Part shown: positions 1 to 19,622 of the stretch, piece by piece | Layout: every line of letters begins with the position of its first letter | Position numbering within the stretch: position 1 is the stretch's first letter | Source: a virus | IMG/VR virus record: IMGVR_UViG_3300048028_000311 | Span: 1 to 23,156 of that record | Length of the DNA stretch: 23,156 nucleotides | Strand: one strand, 5' to 3' | Made by a program: the position numbers and the translations under genes | Notes under the pieces: generated by a model | Databases searched by the model: none | The model's input: the letters and a program-made list of their open reading frames with translations, nothing else | Told to the model about the DNA's origin: nothing

Positions 1-1011
1 ACAAACGAAACGTATGTTGAGTTTGTTGACGGCGTTCAGTTTGATTCAAAATTAAAATCACCACACTTAGCTACTGATAAAGAAAAATCAGTTTGTACTC
101 TAGAAAATCCGTATGTTTTATTAATATCTTCAACAGTTACAAACATAAGAAAAATACAAAGTGTTCTTGAGTTTGTTATTAAAAACAAAAAACCTTTATT
201 AATAGTTGCAGATCTAGAGCAACAACCTTATGCAACATTAGTAGCAAACAAAGTAAAAGGTAATATAAAAGTAAACATAGTTGAGCCACCTGGCTTTGGG
301 CCTACAAAGCTACAGTCTATGGAAGATTTAGCATTTTTAACAGGTGCTAAACTAATGAACGAAGAATTAGGTGATGACTTAGATTTAATAGATCCATCTG
401 TGCTTGGTACAGCAATAAAATCCGTGACAGATAACACCAACACCGTGTTACAAGTTAATAAAGAAAGAGAAGATCTTAAAGAAAGGATAGACGGCGTTAA
501 GTCAAAGATAAAAGAAGAGACAAACGGATTTTTTAAGAAAAAACTAGAACAACGCTTGGCTATGTTATCAGGAATAGTTGGCATCGTTAAAGTAGGCGCT
601 AACAGTAAGGTAGAGCTTAAAGAAAAGAAAGATAGAGTTGAAGACGCTATATACGCAACTAAGGCGGCACTAAAAGAAGGTATCATTGCTGGCGGGGGTG
701 TTGCACTACTAAACGCGGCTCAACAAATAGAAACAAAATCATTTGGAGAAGAAGCTCTTTTAAAGGCAATAACCTCCCCATACTTTACTATACTACAAAA
801 TGCTGGCATTGATGAATGTGGATGTCATGATGAAATAAACTTTGGCATAGACGTTAACACGGGTAAAGAAGTCGACATGATTAAAGCTGGAATTATAGAC
901 CCGGTTTTGGTTACAAAATCGGCGCTAAAAAACGCGGTTAGTGTAGCTACTACAATAATATCTGCTGATTGTATAATTAGTAATAAAAGATTAGACGATG
1001 CAAGCAATTAA
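1..1011 (+). CDS. groEL: Phage-encoded GroEL-type chaperonin, 5' end outside window
   Basis: The frame is open from the first base, giving the last 336 of the roughly 540 residues of a group I chaperonin: most of the apical domain, the second intermediate segment and the C-terminal equatorial segment. Visible landmarks are DGVQFD at the apical hinge, the PPGFG loop, LEQRLAMLSG, RVEDAIYATKAALKEG with the catalytic Asp (D398 in E. coli numbering), the GIIAGGGVALL nucleotide loop and AGIIDPVLVTKSAL with the ATP-pocket Asp (D495). The protein ends in RLDDASN with no GGM-repeat tail. Aligned by eye to E. coli, several substrate and GroES groove residues differ (Y199L, Y203H, F204L, L234Q, L259Y, V264A), and the R197-E386 salt-bridge pair is S and K. 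It overlaps groES by 14 bases and leads straight into virion genes, so it is a viral copy. Role: ATP-driven folding of proteins in the host cytoplasm, probably virion proteins. Confidence 0.95.
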   Translation, partial: TNETYVEFVDGVQFDSKLKSPHLATDKEKSVCTLENPYVLLISSTVTNIRKIQSVLEFVIKNKKPLLIVADLEQQPYATLVANKVKGNIKVNIVEPPGFGPTKLQSMEDLAFLTGAKLMNEELGDDLDLIDPSVLGTAIKSVTDNTNTVLQVNKEREDLKERIDGVKSKIKEETNGFFKKKLEQRLAMLSGIVGIVKVGANSKVELKEKKDRVEDAIYATKAALKEGIIAGGGVALLNAAQQIETKSFGEEALLKAITSPYFTILQNAGIDECGCHDEINFGIDVNTGKEVDMIKAGIIDPVLVTKSALKNAVSVATTIISADCIISNKRLDDASN

Positions 1012-1255
1012 TTATTATTTAGTAGTTGAAAAAATAAAAGAGGCACCGAAAAAAGTAGGTGGCTTAGAGTTAACTGAATCTCAGGACAAAGACATTAGAT
1101 ACTTAAAGGGAAAAGTTATAAGCGTTGGAGATCAGGTTCCTGTTGTGAAAAAAGACGATATAGTCAGATATGACAAACATCAAGGTTTTGGCATAGAATA
1201 TGAAGAAAAACTTTACTATGTTATAAAAATATCAGACGTTGTTATAGTTGAATGA
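998..1255 (+). CDS. groES: Phage-encoded GroES co-chaperonin
   Basis: An 85-residue protein with the 10-kDa chaperonin pattern: an N-terminal strand (YYLVVEKI), a mobile loop at about 14-31 carrying GGLEL where E. coli GroES has GGIVL, the strand GKVISVGD, then DDIVRYDKHQGFGIEYEEK and the closing YYVIKISDVVIVE. It is about 12 residues shorter than E. coli GroES (97). The loss lies between VGD and KKDDIV, which corresponds to the roof hairpin of the dome. The ATG sits inside the last codons of groEL (14-base overlap), implying translational coupling and a functional pair. It should cap the GroEL ring and release bound protein. Phage GroES-type proteins such as T4 Gp31 enlarge the folding cage for the capsid protein; here the roof is shorter, not the wall longer. 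Confidence 0.9.
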   Translation: MQAINYYLVVEKIKEAPKKVGGLELTESQDKDIRYLKGKVISVGDQVPVVKKDDIVRYDKHQGFGIEYEEKLYYVIKISDVVIVE

Positions 1256-4055: not shown

Positions 4056-4439
4056 ATGAAAACATTATTTTTAACAATAAGCATAATAATATCAACTGTA
4101 TTAATTAAACCACAAGCAGAGAATAGTAAGTTCATAGGAACTTGGAAAAGTGAAGGCAGTGATTATACAATGCTGATAACTGCAAAAAACAAAAATTTAG
4201 ATATATATAATTACAACTTTCAAAAACAAGATCTTGATAACGTGTCAAGCGTTACATTGAGCACTGTTGAAGAAAAAGTTATTCAGTTTAGTAGAAGAAA
4301 GATGAAAACAAATATATTCTACGAAAAAAACAACCACAGAGTGTCTATTACATATAAAATAATAAACAAAGAAAAAATGAAAGCTATTTTTAAAGGAAAC
4401 TGGAATGGCGTCATATACTATAACAAACAAAACAAATAA
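4056..4439 (+). CDS. Small secreted lipocalin-like protein
   Basis: A 127-residue protein with a clear N-terminal signal peptide: K after the start, a hydrophobic core LFLTISIIISTVLI, and likely cleavage after PQA near residue 21. There is no lipobox Cys, so it is not a lipoprotein. The mature part begins FIGTWKSEGSDYTMLITAKN and continues as alternating strands ending GNWNGVIYYNK, the look of the small lipocalin-like domains common in secreted proteins of Flavobacteriia. It should act outside the cytoplasm. It stands apart from its neighbours by having its own 56-base leader and a host-like character, so it may be a moron acquired from a host. Possible roles are envelope modification, superinfection exclusion or a virion accessory. 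The exact function is unknown. Confidence 0.65.
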   Translation: MKTLFLTISIIISTVLIKPQAENSKFIGTWKSEGSDYTMLITAKNKNLDIYNYNFQKQDLDNVSSVTLSTVEEKVIQFSRRKMKTNIFYEKNNHRVSITYKIINKEKMKAIFKGNWNGVIYYNKQNK

Positions 4440-4440
4440 A

Positions 4441-4785
4441 ATGGGAAACAACGGAAAAGGCATAGGCCCTCAAAAATTAGGATATGCTAAATCAATGGCT
4501 AAAAAATCATATGGTTCAATGGCTAAAAAATCATATGGTTCAATGGCTAAACAAACAGGACCAAAAAAAGAACCAAAAACAGGTGAAGACACTGCTTTTA
4601 ATGATGCAAACAATGATGGAAATATGTTTAGTCGTACGATTAAAGCTTTTTCAGATGGCACTAAGCGTTCTGATGAAAAAGCAGCAAAAGCTAAAAGCTA
4701 TCAACAGAGCATAAATAATAAATTTATTGGCGATATTAAAAGCAAAGGTTTTGTTAAAGCGGTAAAAGATAATTTTAGATTTTAA
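4441..4785 (+). CDS. Small basic phage protein with SMAKKSYG repeats
   Basis: I prefer the ATG at 4441 (MGNNGKGIG), one base after the preceding stop, giving 114 residues. An in-frame ATG at 4405 would overlap the lipocalin-like gene by 35 bases. Near the N-terminus the eight-residue unit SMAKKSYG occurs twice, followed by a half copy SMAK. The rest is lysine-rich and probably disordered, with a final IGDIKSKGFVKAVKDNFRF segment that could form an amphipathic helix. The stop overlaps the holin ATG by one base. The function is unknown; as a neighbour of the holin it could be lysis-related or a virion protein. Confidence 0.6.
   Translation: MGNNGKGIGPQKLGYAKSMAKKSYGSMAKKSYGSMAKQTGPKKEPKTGEDTAFNDANNDGNMFSRTIKAFSDGTKRSDEKAAKAKSYQQSINNKFIGDIKSKGFVKAVKDNFRF
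4492..4551 (+). repeat. 24-bp in-frame tandem repeat, 2.5 copies
   Basis: Two identical 24-base units (4492-4515 and 4516-4539) and a 12-base partial third (4540-4551) begin with TCAATGGCTAAA and encode SMAKKSYG. Identity at third codon positions shows a recent duplication by slippage, so copy number probably varies between related phages. Confidence 0.9.
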
Positions 4786-7792: not shown

Positions 7793-9610
7793 ATGTCAAT
7801 TAAATATTTATGTGGAATCGACGTGGACAACGGTTTGTTGTACACAGACACTGCTAATGATAGAGTTGGTATTGGAACAACTAGTCCTTCAAGATTATTA
7901 ACGTTAAAAGGCGCAGATACTCCAACTATAGAAATTACAGATACAACGACTCCAGTAACTTTAAATATTTCAGCTGCAAACTCTAGAGCAAGTGTAGGTA
8001 CAGTAACATCGCATCCTTTGAGATTTCTTACTAATGACACTGAAAGAATGCGTATTCATCAAAGCAACGGAGACGTAGGTATTGGAACCACGAGTCCTGG
8101 CGCTAAGCTTGATGTAGTAGGAACTATAAGAGCAACAAACCCAAGCGGTAATCAAGCCAGTTTAACAGGTAGTAGTTTATTATTTCCTGATGCAGCAACT
8201 ACAACAATAGGCGCTAATATAGTTAATTTTAATACCGGCACAAAAAACCTTATAATTGGCGGAAATTCTACAAAATGGAATGATGTGACCGTAATTTCTA
8301 ACACTTACAAGTGGTCGTCAGGAGGAATTGGTAACACAGGTGAATTAAATATTTCATCTTCTTCAATGGATGTAGATGTTCTACTAAAGATAGAAGATGG
8401 GGTTAATATAGAAAATCTTGCAAACGCAACTAGCGACACTGATAGATTTCTAGTTTCAGATCCGGGACAGTCTGATAGAGTTAAATATAGAACTGGTGCT
8501 CAATTAGCAGCTGATATAGGTGCTGTTACAGGCGGACCGTTTCTACCACTTGCACCAACAGGCACAGACGTAGTAACTGGAGATGTTAGAATAGCAGAGA
8601 ATAAGTATTTTAGATTCGGAGCTAGTGCTAATGCAGCTGGAAGTTTAATAATAGGGCATACAAACTTTGGATCACCATATAGTCAAATATTAGAAAATGG
8701 AACAGGTGATTTAAAAATATCAGCAACTAATTTAATATTAGAATCTGCTAATGCAGAAACATATATTGATTGTAATTTTAACAGCAGCGTAGACTTATAT
8801 CACAACAATGTTAAAAAGTTTGCAACATTATCAACTGGAGCTTCAGTAAATGGGAGTCTTGGTATTAACACAACTAGTCCTAACACTCAAATAGAAATAG
8901 TTAATTCTGAGGATCAAACTTCAACTTTAAGGCTTACAACTAGCGATAATTCTTCTGGCAATGTTTCTGGTGAAATATCATTTGCGCTTGATGGATCAAC
9001 TGTTGGAGCTAAAATACAAAGCATTATTAATGCGAATGAAGATGGCACTGATTTAAAGCTAGATTCTACTAATACTACTTTAACTGGAGATTTAACAGTA
9101 TCAGGCGGTGATATTAGTTTAAGTGGAACAGGTAGAATACAAGGTGTCGATACAGTTAGTGCCTCAACTGACGCTGCTAACAAAGCTTATGTAGACGCTC
9201 ACGTACCTACAGACACCCAAACTATATTGTTTAGTAATTTTCAGGACTCAGGAAGCACTACAAGTTCTTTAAGAATACCATTCAACACCTTAAACGAAAC
9301 AACATCAAATCAATATTACAATCATTTTGATTGTCCTGCTGATGGTACTATAAAAAGAATAAGGATGCAAAATACAAGTGGAAGTTTAAGTACAAGTTTT
9401 ACAACTATATTTGATATATGGAAAAATGCTACTGGTACACCAACACAATCATCAGGTTCTTTAACCGCTAGTGGTGGATCTATAGAATATGATCCTAACC
9501 TTAGTTTTTCAAAAGGTGACAATATTCAAATTGGTTATAGAAAAAGTGCAGGTGCTAAATACTGGCAAGGAGTTAGTGCGTCAATAATTTTAGAATTTGA
9601 ACAAGTATAA
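7793..9610 (+). CDS. Long tail fibre protein B with VGIGTTSP repeats
   Basis: A 605-residue fibre protein. Its start, MSIKYLCGIDVDNG, shares the LC-x-(I/V)-D tag with the previous fibre, suggesting both attach to the same virion partner. It holds the VGIGTTSP motif at residues 25-32 and 95-102 and a diverged LGINTTSP at 356-363, the repeat type found in the shafts of phage fibres and in adhesins of Bacteroidota. A helical stretch DAANKAYVDAHVP near 464-476 is the classic fibre hinge or trimerisation motif. The last 120 residues (FQDSGSTTSSLRIPF, FDCPADGTIKRIRMQN) form a separate beta domain, probably carbohydrate binding. No intramolecular chaperone (peptidase S74) tail is present. Confidence 0.8.
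   Translation: MSIKYLCGIDVDNGLLYTDTANDRVGIGTTSPSRLLTLKGADTPTIEITDTTTPVTLNISAANSRASVGTVTSHPLRFLTNDTERMRIHQSNGDVGIGTTSPGAKLDVVGTIRATNPSGNQASLTGSSLLFPDAATTTIGANIVNFNTGTKNLIIGGNSTKWNDVTVISNTYKWSSGGIGNTGELNISSSSMDVDVLLKIEDGVNIENLANATSDTDRFLVSDPGQSDRVKYRTGAQLAADIGAVTGGPFLPLAPTGTDVVTGDVRIAENKYFRFGASANAAGSLIIGHTNFGSPYSQILENGTGDLKISATNLILESANAETYIDCNFNSSVDLYHNNVKKFATLSTGASVNGSLGINTTSPNTQIEIVNSEDQTSTLRLTTSDNSSGNVSGEISFALDGSTVGAKIQSIINANEDGTDLKLDSTNTTLTGDLTVSGGDISLSGTGRIQGVDTVSASTDAANKAYVDAHVPTDTQTILFSNFQDSGSTTSSLRIPFNTLNETTSNQYYNHFDCPADGTIKRIRMQNTSGSLSTSFTTIFDIWKNATGTPTQSSGSLTASGGSIEYDPNLSFSKGDNIQIGYRKSAGAKYWQGVSASIILEFEQV
7865..8881 (+). repeat. Dispersed VGIGTTSP-coding repeats in the fibre gene
   Basis: Three related 24-base segments lie at 7865-7888, 8075-8098 and 8858-8881 (GTTGGTATTGGAACAACTAG-type start). 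Each encodes (V/L)GI(G/N)TTSP and is followed by a short strand. They mark repeated shaft modules within fibre B and could serve as sites for homologous domain exchange. Confidence 0.7.
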
Positions 9611-10104
9611 TGGCAAATATAAACGACAACATAAGAGGTAAAAAACTATTTAAAGAAGGGAGTTCTAAACAACTTGCATCTAAAGGTAGTGATGGAGAAA
9701 TAACTGTATCTAAAGAGATATCAGATGATTTAGCATCATTAACAGATGTTAGTGATGTATTTAATGATGATGGATTATATCAGATTAATAGATTTTTAAT
9801 AAAACAAATTGAAGATCTTAGAGAGGATGTAGAAGAACTACATGCGTTTATAAAGGATGCTTTTGGTAAAGACTCTTCATCTGCAGCTTCACAAGGTGCT
9901 AAAGGAGATACTGGAGCTCAGGGTCCAGCTGGCGCAGATGGAACTAATGGTTCTAATGGAAAAAACGGAGCTGATGGCAATAGTCATTTATCCAGTGTGC
10001 ACTCTATAGTGTTTAACGCTAAATCAAAAAAAATAAATATAGTTCTTCTAGAAGGTAAAGGCGGCGAAGACGAAGTTACATATCAATTAGAAGTAGCGAA
10101 TTAA
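9610..10104 (+). CDS. Collagen-like virion protein, probable fibre trimeriser
   Basis: A 164-residue protein starting on the last base of the fibre B stop. Order of parts: a polar N-terminus, a segment SLTDVSDVFNDDGLYQINRF, a probable coiled coil at about 61-85 (LIKQIEDLREDVEELHAF), nine to ten consecutive Gly-X-Y triplets at 96-124 (starting GAKGDTGAQGPAGADG), and a small beta domain at the C-terminus (HSIVFNAKSKKINIVLLEG). A coiled coil before a collagen-like rod is the usual way to start a triple helix, so it should form a homotrimeric stalk with a terminal head. It probably joins or caps the fibres encoded upstream. Confidence 0.75.
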   Translation: MANINDNIRGKKLFKEGSSKQLASKGSDGEITVSKEISDDLASLTDVSDVFNDDGLYQINRFLIKQIEDLREDVEELHAFIKDAFGKDSSSAASQGAKGDTGAQGPAGADGTNGSNGKNGADGNSHLSSVHSIVFNAKSKKINIVLLEGKGGEDEVTYQLEVAN

Positions 10105-11255: not shown

Positions 11256-11451
11256 TATAGGCCGAGATTATAAAAATGACGCTATGCATTACGCCGTTGG
11301 TCAAGAGGTGTACGGTGGTCATGTTATAGAAAGTATAATAGAAGAAGAAGACAAGTATTCTATTTATATTAAAAAAAACAACGAAACACTTCCGTGGAAA
11401 GACTTTAATAAAAACATGGCAATTGCTGTCGAGTATAATTTAGAGTATTAA
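11233..11451 (+). CDS. Small conserved phage protein (SIGRDYKNDAMHY family)
   Basis: A 72-residue protein in a different frame, starting 23 bases before the preceding stop. It carries ISIGRDYKNDAMHYAVGQEV, then YSIYIKKNNETLPWKDFNKN and a final VEYNLEY. The GRDYKxxAMHYxVGQ core followed by WKxFNxNMxxxxEYN recurs in many marine phages in my memory, so the gene is likely real despite the overlap. It looks like a small all-beta protein. Its stop overlaps the next ATG by one base. The function is unknown. Confidence 0.7.
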   Translation: MSLVRKISIGRDYKNDAMHYAVGQEVYGGHVIESIIEEEDKYSIYIKKNNETLPWKDFNKNMAIAVEYNLEY

Positions 11452-12041
11452 TGAATAGTGTTTTTGATTTTATAGTAAAACCATTTAGCAAAAGAAATAA
11501 TAATAAAGTTGAATTAAATGGTTCTGAGTTAATATTAAACACAGAAATGCAAAACCACCAATATGTGAGCAGGCATGGCGTTGTTGTTTCAACACCATTA
11601 GCTTATTGTTCTGAAATAAAACCAGGTGATGAAGTAATAGTACATCATAATGTTTTTAGAAGGTTTTATGATGTAAGAGGTAAAGAGAAAAATAGCAGAA
11701 GCTACTTAAGAGAAGACTTATTTCTTGTTCAACAGAACCAAGTATATGCTTATAAAAGAAGCGAAGAATGGAGAGCTGTTAAAGGTTTTTCTTTTATCAA
11801 GCCGCTACAGCAGATTGATACAATGCAGTTAAGCAATGAGATTGTAGGTAAAGGCGTAGTAAAGCATAGCGATGGCTACATGGAAAAAGGTGCGTTAGTT
11901 TCTTTTAAACCAGGTTCAGAGTACGAGTTTTTTATAGAAAACGAAAGACTATATAGGGTTCCAAATAAATTTATTACAATTAAATATGAATATAAAGGAA
12001 ACGAAGAAGAGTATAATCCAAGCTGGTCACAAAGCAGTTGA
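11451..12041 (+). CDS. Tandem GroES-like (co-chaperonin-fold) protein
   Basis: A 196-residue protein that appears to hold two GroES-like barrels. Part one (about 38-101): YVSRHGVVVSTP, then KPGDEVIVHHNVFR, then a strand ending QVYAYKR. Part two (about 130-180): EIVGKGVVKHS, then GALVSFKPGSEYEF, FIENERLYRVPNKF and ITIKYE. Each half shows the GxVV, about ten residues, (K)xGDxVxF order of GroES, and the second half closes like GroES with a YRVxxxxIxxI pair of strands. No hydrophobic mobile loop of the GGIVL kind is evident. It sits just before the terminase genes, far from groEL/groES. It could be a co-chaperonin variant or a virion protein that uses the fold. The homology is my reading by eye. 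Confidence 0.5.
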   Translation: MNSVFDFIVKPFSKRNNNKVELNGSELILNTEMQNHQYVSRHGVVVSTPLAYCSEIKPGDEVIVHHNVFRRFYDVRGKEKNSRSYLREDLFLVQQNQVYAYKRSEEWRAVKGFSFIKPLQQIDTMQLSNEIVGKGVVKHSDGYMEKGALVSFKPGSEYEFFIENERLYRVPNKFITIKYEYKGNEEEYNPSWSQSS

Positions 12042-12258
12042 GGAGTTAATAAAAGTTGCAAAAGAGCCTATTGTTGATTCAGATGATGATATATCTGCTG
12101 ATAGACTTAAAAACGCAGCAGCAACTAAAAAACTAGCTATTTTTGATGCTTTTGAAATATTAACAAGAATACAATCAGAAGAAGCTATTTTAGAAGATAA
12201 GCCAAAAGATGAAAGTAAAAAAACTTTTAGTGGTTTTGCAGAAAGGAGGTCTAAATAA
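11986..12258 (+). CDS. Candidate small terminase subunit
   Basis: A 90-residue helical protein directly upstream of, and overlapping by one base, the large terminase. The ATG at 11986 is the only plausible start in this frame, giving a long 56-base overlap with the preceding gene in another frame. The core SADRLKNAAATKKLAIFDAF followed by EILTRIQSEE is a pattern I recall from proteins upstream of terL in marine phages. It is shorter than most TerS proteins and no helix-turn-helix is certain, so DNA recognition is inferred from position only. If correct, it forms a ring that selects phage DNA for packaging. Confidence 0.5.
   Translation: MNIKETKKSIIQAGHKAVEELIKVAKEPIVDSDDDISADRLKNAAATKKLAIFDAFEILTRIQSEEAILEDKPKDESKKTFSGFAERRSK
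12244..12250 (+). promoter_or_regulatory. Strong Shine-Dalgarno before the terminase gene
   Basis: AGGAGGT lies eight bases before the ATG at 12258, at ideal spacing. It is the only canonical Shine-Dalgarno I see before any start in the window. It is also inside the coding sequence of the upstream gene (the codons for Glu-Arg-Arg-Ser), so chance cannot be excluded. Confidence 0.45.
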
Positions 12259-14468
12259 TGTACGAGCAGAGTTTATATAAAATAATACAACCTGTAAAAA
12301 TAAACACATTAAACAGATTAAATAAATCTAAAAAATGGAAATATGGCTATAATAAAGAAAATGATATTATAGTTATAAGCAAAACAGGTCAAATAGGTGA
12401 AGTATACGAAATACAAGGGCTTAAAATAGCGCTTCCTAAGGCTCCAAAAAATTTAATTAAAGGCAACAACTGCTGGGAGCCTGAAAAATATCCTAAAGAG
12501 CTTAAAAACATTGCAAGCGTATTTGAATGGAGAGATTACCCCAGCAGCTTCAAGGCTAAGTGGGAAAATTATATTGATAATGAATTTAAAAAAAGAGAAG
12601 AAGGTCATTGGTTCTATAATAGAAGCCTGGCTACTTACATTACTGGCACTCATTTTATGTACTTGCAGTGGTCCAAGATTGATGTTGGGAAGCCAGACTT
12701 TAGAGAAGCAAACAGACTATTCTTTATATTCTGGGAAGCTTGTAAAGCCGACTCACGATGTTATGGAATGTGTTATCTTAAGAACCGCCGTTCCGGATTC
12801 TCTTTCATGTCTTCAGCAGAAACCGTTAATTTGGCAACAATTACATCAGATGCACGGTACGGTATCTTGTCTAAGTCTGGTTCCGATGCTAAGAAAATGT
12901 TCACAGACAAAGTCGTACCAATATCAGTCAACTACCCGTTCTTTTTCAAACCCATCCAGGACGGTATGGACAGGCCAAAAACCGAGCTCGCCTATAGAAT
13001 ACCTGCCTCCAGACTTACCAGAAAGTCAATACAAAACAAAAAAGATCAAGAATTACTTGAAGGATTAGATACAACGATTGACTGGAAAAACACTGGCGAT
13101 AATAGTTATGACGGTGAAAAATTAGCTTTATTAGTACACGACGAGAGCGGTAAATGGGAAAGACCTGACAATATATTAAATAACTGGAGAGTTACAAAAA
13201 CTTGCCTTAGGTTAGGATCTAGAGTTATTGGTAAATGTATGATGGGTTCAACTTCTAATTCATTAGATAAAGGTGGAGAAAATTTTAAAAAACTATACTA
13301 CAACTCAGATGCTAGTAAAAGAAACAGGAATGGACAGACTAGCTCAGGATTATATTCTCTGTTCATACCTATGGAATGGAACTACGAAGGATTCATTGAT
13401 TCTTATGGACACCCTGTTTTCGATACTCCAAAAGAACCAGTTGAAGGGCCTCATGGCGACCTAATAGACATAGGTGTTGTAGAGCATTGGAATAACGAAG
13501 CAGATGGTTTAAAAGGCGACCAAGACGCTTTAAATGAGTTTTACAGACAGTTTCCAAGAACTGAAGAACATGCTTTCAGGGACGAAACAAAAAACAGTAT
13601 ATTTAATTTAGTAAAAATATACGAACAAATAGATTACAATGAAGACTTGAGAAACACTAATGTTGTTTCTACAGGAAGTTTTCAATGGCAAAACGGAGTA
13701 AAAGACAGCGTGGTAAGTTTTTTACCAAACTCTAACGGAAGATTTAAATTAACTTGGGTGCCAAATTACTCTTTACAAAATAAGCAAGTTTTAAAAAATG
13801 GTATAAAACATCCAGGTAATGAACATATAGGTGCTTTTGGTTGTGATAGTTACGATATCTCAGGAACAGTTGATGGAAATGGATCTAAAGGTTCTTTGCA
13901 TGGATTAACTAAGTTTTCAATGGAAGATGCTCCACCTAATTCTTTTTTTTTAGAATACGTGGCTAGACCACAAACGGCAGAAATGTTTTTTGAAGATGTT
14001 TTAATGGCTTGTGTTTTTTATGGCATGCCTCTTTTAGCTGAAAATAATAAACCTAGATTATTATATTATTTTAAAAGAAGAGGTTACAGAGGTTATTCAA
14101 TGAATAGACCTGATAAGATATGGAACAAGCTGTCTGTTGCGGAAAAAGAAATAGGTGGCATACCAAATTCTAGTGAAGATATAAAACAAGCTCATGCTGC
14201 TGCTATTGAGTCTTATATAGATAAGTATGTAGGATTAAAATCAGATTCACAATATGGTGATATGTATTTTAACAGAACTCTAGGTGATTGGGCTAAGTTT
14301 GATATAAACAAAAGAACAAAATTTGATGCAGCTATAAGTTCTGGGTTAGCTATAATGGCTTGCAATAGGCACTTATATAGACCTGTTGCTAAAATAGAAA
14401 AACAACCAATAAATATAAAAATCGCTAAGTTTAGTAATGGCGGTAGTTTATCAAAAATAATAAAATAA
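12258..14468 (+). CDS. terL: Terminase large subunit (packaging ATPase/nuclease)
   Basis: A 736-residue protein. An N-terminal extension (1-165) precedes the ATPase. The Walker A region is the deviant MCYLKNRRSGFSFMSSAE at 171-188, of the KxRxxGFS type known in terminases. Walker B is KLALLVHDESGKW (288-300) with D294 and the catalytic E295. The coupling motif is CMMGSTSN at 327-334. The nuclease half starts at about 525 with FGCDSYDISG, whose D530 is the likely first metal ligand, and ends with DWAKFDINKRTKFDAAISSG. It motors DNA into the prohead through the portal encoded next (three-base gap). Bases about 12640-13025 have a higher GC content and different codon choices than the rest of the gene, suggesting recombination in the ATPase core. 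Confidence 0.92.
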   Translation: MYEQSLYKIIQPVKINTLNRLNKSKKWKYGYNKENDIIVISKTGQIGEVYEIQGLKIALPKAPKNLIKGNNCWEPEKYPKELKNIASVFEWRDYPSSFKAKWENYIDNEFKKREEGHWFYNRSLATYITGTHFMYLQWSKIDVGKPDFREANRLFFIFWEACKADSRCYGMCYLKNRRSGFSFMSSAETVNLATITSDARYGILSKSGSDAKKMFTDKVVPISVNYPFFFKPIQDGMDRPKTELAYRIPASRLTRKSIQNKKDQELLEGLDTTIDWKNTGDNSYDGEKLALLVHDESGKWERPDNILNNWRVTKTCLRLGSRVIGKCMMGSTSNSLDKGGENFKKLYYNSDASKRNRNGQTSSGLYSLFIPMEWNYEGFIDSYGHPVFDTPKEPVEGPHGDLIDIGVVEHWNNEADGLKGDQDALNEFYRQFPRTEEHAFRDETKNSIFNLVKIYEQIDYNEDLRNTNVVSTGSFQWQNGVKDSVVSFLPNSNGRFKLTWVPNYSLQNKQVLKNGIKHPGNEHIGAFGCDSYDISGTVDGNGSKGSLHGLTKFSMEDAPPNSFFLEYVARPQTAEMFFEDVLMACVFYGMPLLAENNKPRLLYYFKRRGYRGYSMNRPDKIWNKLSVAEKEIGGIPNSSEDIKQAHAAAIESYIDKYVGLKSDSQYGDMYFNRTLGDWAKFDINKRTKFDAAISSGLAIMACNRHLYRPVAKIEKQPINIKIAKFSNGGSLSKIIK
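12640..13025 (+). other. GC-richer, codon-shifted patch within terL
   Basis: By hand count, 12661-13020 is about 44 % GC (157 of 360), against 29 % at 12301-12480, 36 % at 13081-13260 and 30 % at 14041-14160. Codons rare elsewhere here (CCC, CTC, GCC, TCC, ACC, ATC) cluster in this patch, for example at 12940-13018. The protein reading frame is intact. The edges are approximate. Confidence 0.7.
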
Positions 14469-18140: not shown

Positions 18141-19622
18141 ATGGCTGGAACATTTCCGGGCACTGGTGCCCAATTGAATCACCAAACTCCACGTCCTACT
18201 AAAGGCTTGTTTGCGGACAACTACCTTTCTTTGACAGACATGGATTTCACAAAACAGTTCTTACCAGAAGTGTATGAAAAAGAAGTAGAAAGATACGGTA
18301 ATCGTACTATTTCTGGATTTTTACGCATGGTAGGAGCAGAAATGCCTATGGCTTCTGACCGAATTGTATGGTCTGAGCAAGGGCGTTTACACATCGCTAT
18401 GGACGATTGTAAAGTAACTGTAGCTAACGCTGCTGCTAATCATGTAACTTTTATTGATGATCCAGCTGGAACTGCCGGATTACAAACAAAAGAGCAAAAA
18501 GCGGCATTAATTAACGCTGGCCAAACAGTTATCGTTGCTAAAGATGGTATTGTAATTAAAGCTAGAGTAACAACTGGAGGTACAGGTGCTAATGCACATA
18601 TTGTTGTAGCGCCTTACGGAGCTCAAAATTTAAACACAATCTTAGGTGGTGGCAATGCTACTATTGAAGGAGTTGCTGTTTTTGTTTATGGTTCTGAATA
18701 CAAAAAAGGATCTTCAGGAATTGCAGCTCAACCTGATGCTAAATTCACTCAGTTCAACAACAAACCAATTATACTAAGAGAAAAGTATAGTGTTAATGGT
18801 TCTGACGTTGCTCAAATTGGATGGGTTGAAGTAACTACTGAAGCTGGAACTGGAGGGTACTTATGGTACTTAAAGTCTGAGCATGAAGCTAGATTACGTT
18901 TTGAAGACTACTTAGAAATGTCTATGATTGAAGCTGTTAAAGATAATGGTGGTGGAGCTGGAGCTTCTGCTGGTGACCTTGGTTTTACCGGTAGTGAAGG
19001 TATGTTTGCTGCTATTGAAGACAGAGGATTAGTATTTAACGACCCAGATTTTGCCTCAACAGCTGCTAACGCACCAGGAATTGCTGATTTTGATGCAATT
19101 TTAGGTGAATTAGATAAGCAGGGTGCTATCGAAGAAAACATGCTTTTCTTAGACCGCGCAACTTCTTTAGATATTGATATTATGTTAGCTGCTCAAAATG
19201 CTTATGGAGTTGGCGGAACGTCTTACGGTGTATTTGAAAACTCTGAAGATATGGCTTTGAACCTAGGATTTAACGGTTTCCGTAGAGGATCTTATGATTT
19301 CTACAAAACAGATTGGAAATATTTAAATGACTCAACTACAAGAGGAATGATAAAAGATATTCTTGGTGTTGTTGTGCCTGCAGGTACTTCTACTGTTTAT
19401 GACCAAATTTTAGGACAGAATATTCAAAGACCATTTTTACACGTACGCTACAGAGCTTCTGAAGCAGACGATCGTAGATTAAAATCTTGGATTACTGGAT
19501 CTGTTGGCGGAAACTTTACAAGTGACGTTGATGAAATGAATGTTAACTTCTTGTCTGAAAGAGCATTATGCGTTCAAGCGGCTAACAACTTTGTACTTCT
19601 TAAGAAAACAGCAAATTTCTAA
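18141..19622 (+). CDS. Major capsid protein
   Basis: A 493-residue protein in the portal-scaffold-capsid order. It starts MAGTFPGTGAQLNHQTPRPT, then FADNYLSLTDMDFTKQFLPEVYEKEVERYGNRTISGFLRMVGAEMPM-type helices, a beta domain (IVWSEQGRLHIAMDDC, VTFIDDPAG), RFEDYLEMSMIEAVKDNGGG, and LFLDRATSLDIDIML. It ends VDEMNVNFLSERALCVQAAN. Length and context fit an HK97-fold shell protein; the fold is inferred. Codons here lean to C-ending forms more than in neighbours, as expected for the most highly expressed gene. It is the likely client of the phage chaperonins encoded at the left end of the window. Confidence 0.85.
   Translation: MAGTFPGTGAQLNHQTPRPTKGLFADNYLSLTDMDFTKQFLPEVYEKEVERYGNRTISGFLRMVGAEMPMASDRIVWSEQGRLHIAMDDCKVTVANAAANHVTFIDDPAGTAGLQTKEQKAALINAGQTVIVAKDGIVIKARVTTGGTGANAHIVVAPYGAQNLNTILGGGNATIEGVAVFVYGSEYKKGSSGIAAQPDAKFTQFNNKPIILREKYSVNGSDVAQIGWVEVTTEAGTGGYLWYLKSEHEARLRFEDYLEMSMIEAVKDNGGGAGASAGDLGFTGSEGMFAAIEDRGLVFNDPDFASTAANAPGIADFDAILGELDKQGAIEENMLFLDRATSLDIDIMLAAQNAYGVGGTSYGVFENSEDMALNLGFNGFRRGSYDFYKTDWKYLNDSTTRGMIKDILGVVVPAGTSTVYDQILGQNIQRPFLHVRYRASEADDRRLKSWITGSVGGNFTSDVDEMNVNFLSERALCVQAANNFVLLKKTANF

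Follow-up and report, generated by a model that had tools for sequence, protein, structure and literature searches.

The window analysed here is an entire virus contig of 23,156 bases (IMG/VR record IMGVR_UViG_3300048028_000311, positions 1–23,156), which opens inside a chaperonin gene. The 3' part of groEL occupies positions 1–1011 of the plus strand and encodes 336 amino acids corresponding to E. coli GroEL residues ~183–525 (Cpn60_TCP1, 6e-26; phrog_5725, 1e-82); the start of the gene lies beyond the left end of the record, and the window copy comprises these last 336 residues only. On the same strand follow groES (998–1255, 85 aa; Cpn10, 5e-9; phrog_3188), which overlaps the end of groEL by 14 nt, a second GroES-like gene (11451–12041), terL encoding the terminase large subunit (12258–14468), and a gene for a virion structural protein, probably the major capsid protein (18141–19622; phrog_13704). 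Beyond groES the contig also has genes for a holin, tail or fibre-like proteins and a portal, as well as a crAss-type muzzle protein gene of which the start is present, and the groE genes share their strand with the virion genes. Judged by terminase and structural protein, the nearest named viruses are the environmental podovirus MW202828, Flavobacterium elemo phages, Cellulophaga phages (phi38:1 in the case of terL) and Maribacter phage Panino. The virus is best explained as a Flavobacteriia-type podophage that makes its groEL and groES as an overlapping pair. A host or prophage origin was sought among 397 genomes of the family of a Polaribacter genome, where the best match reached 45% identity, and so a close cellular relative was not found there. 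Three further plus-strand genes were noticed: 2310–2921 encodes a very basic protein with an Arg/Lys/Cys-rich C-terminal tail, possibly nucleic-acid binding or virion-associated; 4405–4785 a small protein containing three tandem, nearly identical repeats (SMAKKSYG); and 9610–10104, between fibre-like genes, a collagen-like repeat protein.

The initial annotation, aligning the protein to E. coli GroEL by eye, had read a series of substitutions in the substrate groove and in an inter-subunit salt bridge next to a conserved ATP pocket. We aligned the protein to the GroEL sequence of the E. coli genome record in two MAFFT runs with different relatives, both of which place the residues in identical columns, so that the positions are not shifted by alignment, and every residue lies where it had been read. 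The plus-strand segment 46–69, where R197 is lost and the groove residues of the underlying segment are altered, holds S197 (nt 46–48), L199 (52–54), H203 (64–66) and L204 (67–69). Helix H, the site of GroES and substrate docking (contact role, PMC3514286), carries Q234 (157–159) and a retained L237 within 157–168, and helix I runs from Y259 (229–231) to A264 (244–246). K386 (607–609), the catalytic D398 (643–645) and the nucleotide-pocket residue D495 (898–900) complete the set, the two aspartates being kept.

Are these substitutions a property of Bacteroidota GroEL at large? In 80 cellular loci, drawn mainly from Bacteroidota and sister phyla, we found R197 in 79, Y199 in 79, Y203 and F204 in all 80, L234 in 78, L259 in 80, V264 in 77 and E386 in 79 of 79. 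The 22 additional loci that match the window protein best among cellular sequences (closest Flavobacteriaceae) show R, Y, Y, F, L, L, V and E at 197, 199, 203, 204, 234, 259, 264 and 386 without exception. None of the window substitutions was thus found in ordinary Bacteroidota GroEL across the 80 loci and the 22 closest matches, and the possibility that they are commonplace in Flavobacteriia falls away. The picture is reversed in 80 viral contigs whose GroEL is 66–82% identical to that of the window: L199, K200, H203 and Q234 occur in all 80, S197 in 79, L204 in 71, A264 in 60, Y259 in 57 and K386 in 57 (20 others having E and 3 having Q).

The GroEL of this clade is about 38–44% identical to cellular GroEL (38% to that of E. 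coli). A quick tree places the window inside its phage clade with 100% SH-aLRT support and apart from the MW202828 clade, the elemo clade and cellular GroEL, with long branches that leave the deep placement unsure. Capture from Bacteroidota GroEL was considered and set aside, the clade being kept apart with this full support, subject to the same uncertainty at depth. In the alignment R197 persists in the two sister phage clades alongside D386 or E386, and positions 203 and 234 are fixed there in ways of their own, mostly as L203 with E234, or as G203 with L234. The MW202828 clade retains R197–D386, has lost ring–ring contacts too, and combines a groove with E234/K238 with a hydrophobic GroES loop. 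Several records labelled as Listeria, Enterococcus or Salmonella 'phage' carry an ordinary-looking bacterial groEL and may represent host DNA contamination.

The protein is a group I chaperonin by its Cpn60 sequence profile, its three-domain GroEL fold and its intact ATP site (T30, D52, D87, GDGTTT, D398, D495). For L002, the closest relative with a full-length sequence, the AF2 model has the GroEL fold, with a pLDDT of 86 and a TM-score of 0.90 to 4aaq. T30, D52, D87, GDGTTT, D398, G414–416 and D495 are invariant or nearly so in the clade, being retained in 74–80 of the 80 relatives, and nearly all other rows simply lack the region; the N-terminal residues among them are known from the relatives, as the window copy begins at about E. 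coli position 183. Because the ATP site is so uniformly conserved, the protein is likely a working ATPase, and the ATPase part of the proposed working ring appears sound.

In E. coli, E386 is the partner of R197 at rest and of K80 once ATP binds (PMC3326522). In the phage clade R197 is replaced by S in 79 of the 80 sequences and K80 by N in all 76 that reach position 80; D83 has become K or R, and K327 is lost. The initial annotation described the R197–E386 pair as converted to S197 and K386. The loss of R197 does extend across the clade; the notion of K386 as a conserved charge swap had to be abandoned, as the residue varies among relatives (57 K, 20 E, 3 Q). To judge from the sequences, the relay has been taken apart by the loss of both partners of E386, rather than the pair being turned into S–K. 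Since R197 and K80 are both gone, altered cooperativity, as first proposed, can fairly be inferred. Among its near kin only this clade has lost the bridge, R197 being accompanied by D386 or E386 in the sister phage clades; farther afield, the EL and OBP phage chaperonins have lost R197–E386 too. A charge-swapped counterpart of D83–K327 is possible, with K/R83 facing D/E near 326–327, where the alignment could be off by one residue.

The groove itself presents a less straightforward case. Four of its residues (L237, E238, T261 and N265) are unchanged, and 8 of 14 host-fixed groove sites have changed in the phage clade against 39 of 74 other host-fixed apical sites (Fisher p=0.50). The groove is therefore not singled out, its rate of change being what ~38–44% identity to cellular GroEL gives. 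What exceeds chance is not the number of changes but the fixation of some of them: among 33 dereplicated relatives with pairwise identities of 65–96%, S197, L199, H203 and Q234 are invariant or nearly so, the invariant columns overall amounting to 127 of 341. The proposal of a rewired groove accordingly holds insofar as S197 and the groove changes are clade-specific and absent from hosts, and fails insofar as it argued from their count. L234 and V264 are, moreover, also GroES docking residues (PMC3514286, PMC5653362), which weakens the case for rewiring driven by a client, because the loop of the phage GroES has changed as well. The product of the nearby capsid gene is a candidate client only.

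A larger departure, overlooked in the initial annotation, is the loss of the ring–ring interface and of the GGM tail. GroEL rings touch through A109, K105–E434/D435, R452–E461, S463 and V464 (PMC2741606, PMC5575113), and the E. coli quadruple mutant at R452, E461, S463 and V464 forms single rings (PMC2741606; PMC5575113). In the window a shortened stretch at 718–837 (+) stands in place of E. coli ~425–476, lacking E434/D435, E461, S463 and V464 and carrying F at position 452. Throughout the clade residues 433–435 and 460–464 are deleted, with D435/E434, E461, S463 and V464 gone in 80 of 80 relatives, A109 is replaced by E or D, and R452 is hypervariable, taking many different residues. For a residue set picked from known GroEL contacts and their neighbours, the surviving ring–ring columns have a mean entropy of 2.01 bits against 0.51 in the rest of the equatorial domain, a contrast matched in none of 20,000 samples; it recurs in the MW202828 clade (2.50 against 0.97) and is weak in hosts (1.14 against 0.80, P=0.05). 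The AF2 model of L002 has a loop in place of helix 462–471, as has also been reported for the phage EL chaperonin (PMC7185714). The GGM tail is absent, about 2 residues following position 525 compared with 19 in hosts.

The contact residues of R452–E461, K105–D435 and V464 by which a staggered double ring might be recognised are thus deleted or variable, and mitochondrial Hsp60, itself a family member, lacks these bridges too. In mitochondrial Hsp60, residues of the K105–E109 type form a weak inter-ring bridge (PMC7174398). K105 is combined with E or D at 109 in 46 of the ~76 relatives that have both positions; since this resembles the Hsp60 bridge, a labile double ring is possible. Elsewhere in the clade position 105 is E, Q, D, N or S, and the closest relative, L002, has D105/E109.

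The GroES lid has changed in the same lineage. In all 80 relative loci groES follows straight after groEL with an overlap of 1–17 bases, the reverse of the groES–groEL order in all 77 host loci where GroES was found; the stop/start overlaps suggest that the two genes would be translationally coupled. E. coli GroES docks through I25–V26–L27 on L234, L237 and V264 of GroEL (PMC3514286; PMC5653362). The equivalent tripeptide of the window GroES, at 1064–1072 (+), is L-E-L, and in the clade it reads L/I-E-L/M, with Glu26 in 80 of 80 relatives, in 0 of 77 hosts and in neither of the two sister clades. Position 26 is I, Y, F or V in hosts, L, I, V or M in the MW202828 clade, and Y or I in the elemo clade. 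On the docking side of GroEL, the clade replaces L234 by Q and V264 by A or S and keeps L237 and N265. By their residues, then, the docking faces of GroES and GroEL have both become less hydrophobic in one and the same lineage. A weaker lid contact restores cycling in engineered single-ring GroEL, and GroES I25L or I25F seem functional (PMC5575113); the commonest residue at position 25 in the clade is L. Glu26 alone need not weaken the lid much, because binding to E. coli GroEL survives the V26D change in GroES (PMC5575113), and by analogy ordinary grooves may tolerate it. Full orthogonality of the phage pair to the host on the strength of Glu26 was considered and is weakened by this V26D binding, so that orthogonality is to be regarded only as a hypothesis.

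The 196-aa product of 11451–12041, encoded two genes before terL, has as its sole sequence match the co-chaperonin GroES family phrog_13932 (8e-17), and its Pfam Cpn10 match is below the cut-off. Its AF2 model (pLDDT 75.5) has a disordered loop at residues 18–38, and the best Foldseek hit among solved structures, matching over its length, is Cpn20 7ekq_R, the tandem Cpn10 of a green alga (E 7e-4, TM 0.53); the next hits are all GroES. By its predicted fold only, the protein would consist of two GroES barrels in one chain, similar to Cpn20, and it could putatively act as a lid for the phage GroEL or for that of the host, if for either. It is kept in the relatives whose contigs reach it and in the MW202828, elemo, Calle and Panino phages. 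The protein has an invariant HHNVFR...EKNS motif. In the crAss phage cr111, too, a gene annotated as a 10 kDa chaperonin lies a short way upstream of terL.

How does this system relate to known chaperonins? With the GroEL–GroES of E. coli and Bacteroidota the phage clade shares the fold, the ATP pocket, D398, L237/N265/E238 and a partner GroES; it differs from them in having lost R197, K80, D83–K327, the inter-ring contacts and the GGM tail, and in its groEL–groES order and L-E-L loop. The loss of R197–E386 is already known from phage EL gp146 and OBP gp246, which also have altered ring–ring contacts (PMC7185714, PMC9598537), EL having lost D83–K327 as well, and the clade represents a further variant of known phage chaperonins. 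Yet EL and OBP act without GroES, and EL is 22% identical to GroEL; the clade, with 38% identity and a groES overlapping in 80 of 80 loci, falls outside the EL/OBP/AR9 group as defined by the absence of a co-chaperonin and low GroEL identity. Phage AR9 gp228, likewise a phage GroEL, is a single heptameric ring, a state only predicted for the clade; it keeps R197–E386 and needs no co-chaperonin (PMC9598537), whereas the clade has lost the pair and carries groES. The GroEL of the elemo, phi38:1/Calle and MW202828 phages, the nearest by terminase and capsid, has lost ring contacts too, but forms separate clades with R197 and E/D386 kept and other residues at 199, 203 and 234. Human mitochondrial Hsp60–Hsp10, of unrelated origin, shares the absence of K105–D435 and E461–R452; its single and double rings are in equilibrium, and it has a lid of its own (PMC5575113, PMC7174398). 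The virioplankton chaperonins of Marine et al. 2017 reportedly include marine phage GroEL with GroES, probably of the present kind among them. The Hsp10 loop stays hydrophobic, unlike that of the clade GroES.

We consider it probable that the locus, shared by a family of marine phages, encodes a functional, cognate GroES-dependent GroEL–GroES machine with a single or labile ring that folds phage proteins. The phage GroEL would form a single ring, or weakly paired rings like those of mitochondrial Hsp60, with lower cooperativity. A phage protein, most plausibly one of the abundant virion proteins, would be bound by the ring and then capped by the cognate GroES; because docking is less hydrophobic, the lid might be released without a signal from a second ring. 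An ordinary double ring held by other contacts (those of the 1:1 type known from phage EL, or a K105–E109 bridge like that of Hsp60), with inter-ring coupling only weakened, is rather unlikely: phage EL does keep double rings without the GroEL contacts (PMC7185714), and the 46 relatives with K105 and E/D109 have the residues that Hsp60 uses, but the ring–ring columns rank with the most variable positions in the clade's equatorial domain, and the other relatives, L002 with its D105/E109 included, depart from that combination.

The model of the initial annotation, in which the groove was rewired mainly to choose a client of the phage, for example its capsid protein, is doubtful while retaining an appreciable chance. 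It draws on the fixation of L199, H203 and Q234 in the clade and their absence in hosts, on the different but likewise fixed groove residues of the sister phage clades (L203/E234, G203) and on the shared strand of groE and virion genes; against it, the groove is no more altered than other host-fixed apical sites, and the same residues dock a GroES whose loop has changed too. That a fast-evolving viral GroEL simply works as the host enzyme, with changes devoid of special function, would suit both the low identity to cellular GroEL and the missing groove enrichment; this relaxed divergence is nevertheless improbable in view of S197, N80, L199, H203, Q234 and GroES E26, near-invariant down to 65% identity, and of ring contacts consistently deleted in 80 of 80 relatives. 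That the gene is degenerating or has lost its function, and is being shed from the phage genome, is extremely implausible: the window copy is incomplete, though only because the record ends, and nearly all relatives have full-length intact genes, an invariant ATP site and an overlapping groES. Going beyond the machine that we favour, one may tentatively envisage, as a speculation with the odds against it, a self-contained single-ring GroEL–GroES insulated from the host, devoid of inter-ring signalling and of the E386 relay, with GroES E26 and GroEL Q234/H203 rewired reciprocally, and with the tandem protein as a second lid linked to the packaging module.

Engineered single-ring GroEL jams as the release of GroES fails. 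If a natural phage family has lost the same contacts and yet keeps its lid, it would reveal how a single ring can evolve the freedom to cycle. Such a system would also provide a small, possibly host-independent folding machine.
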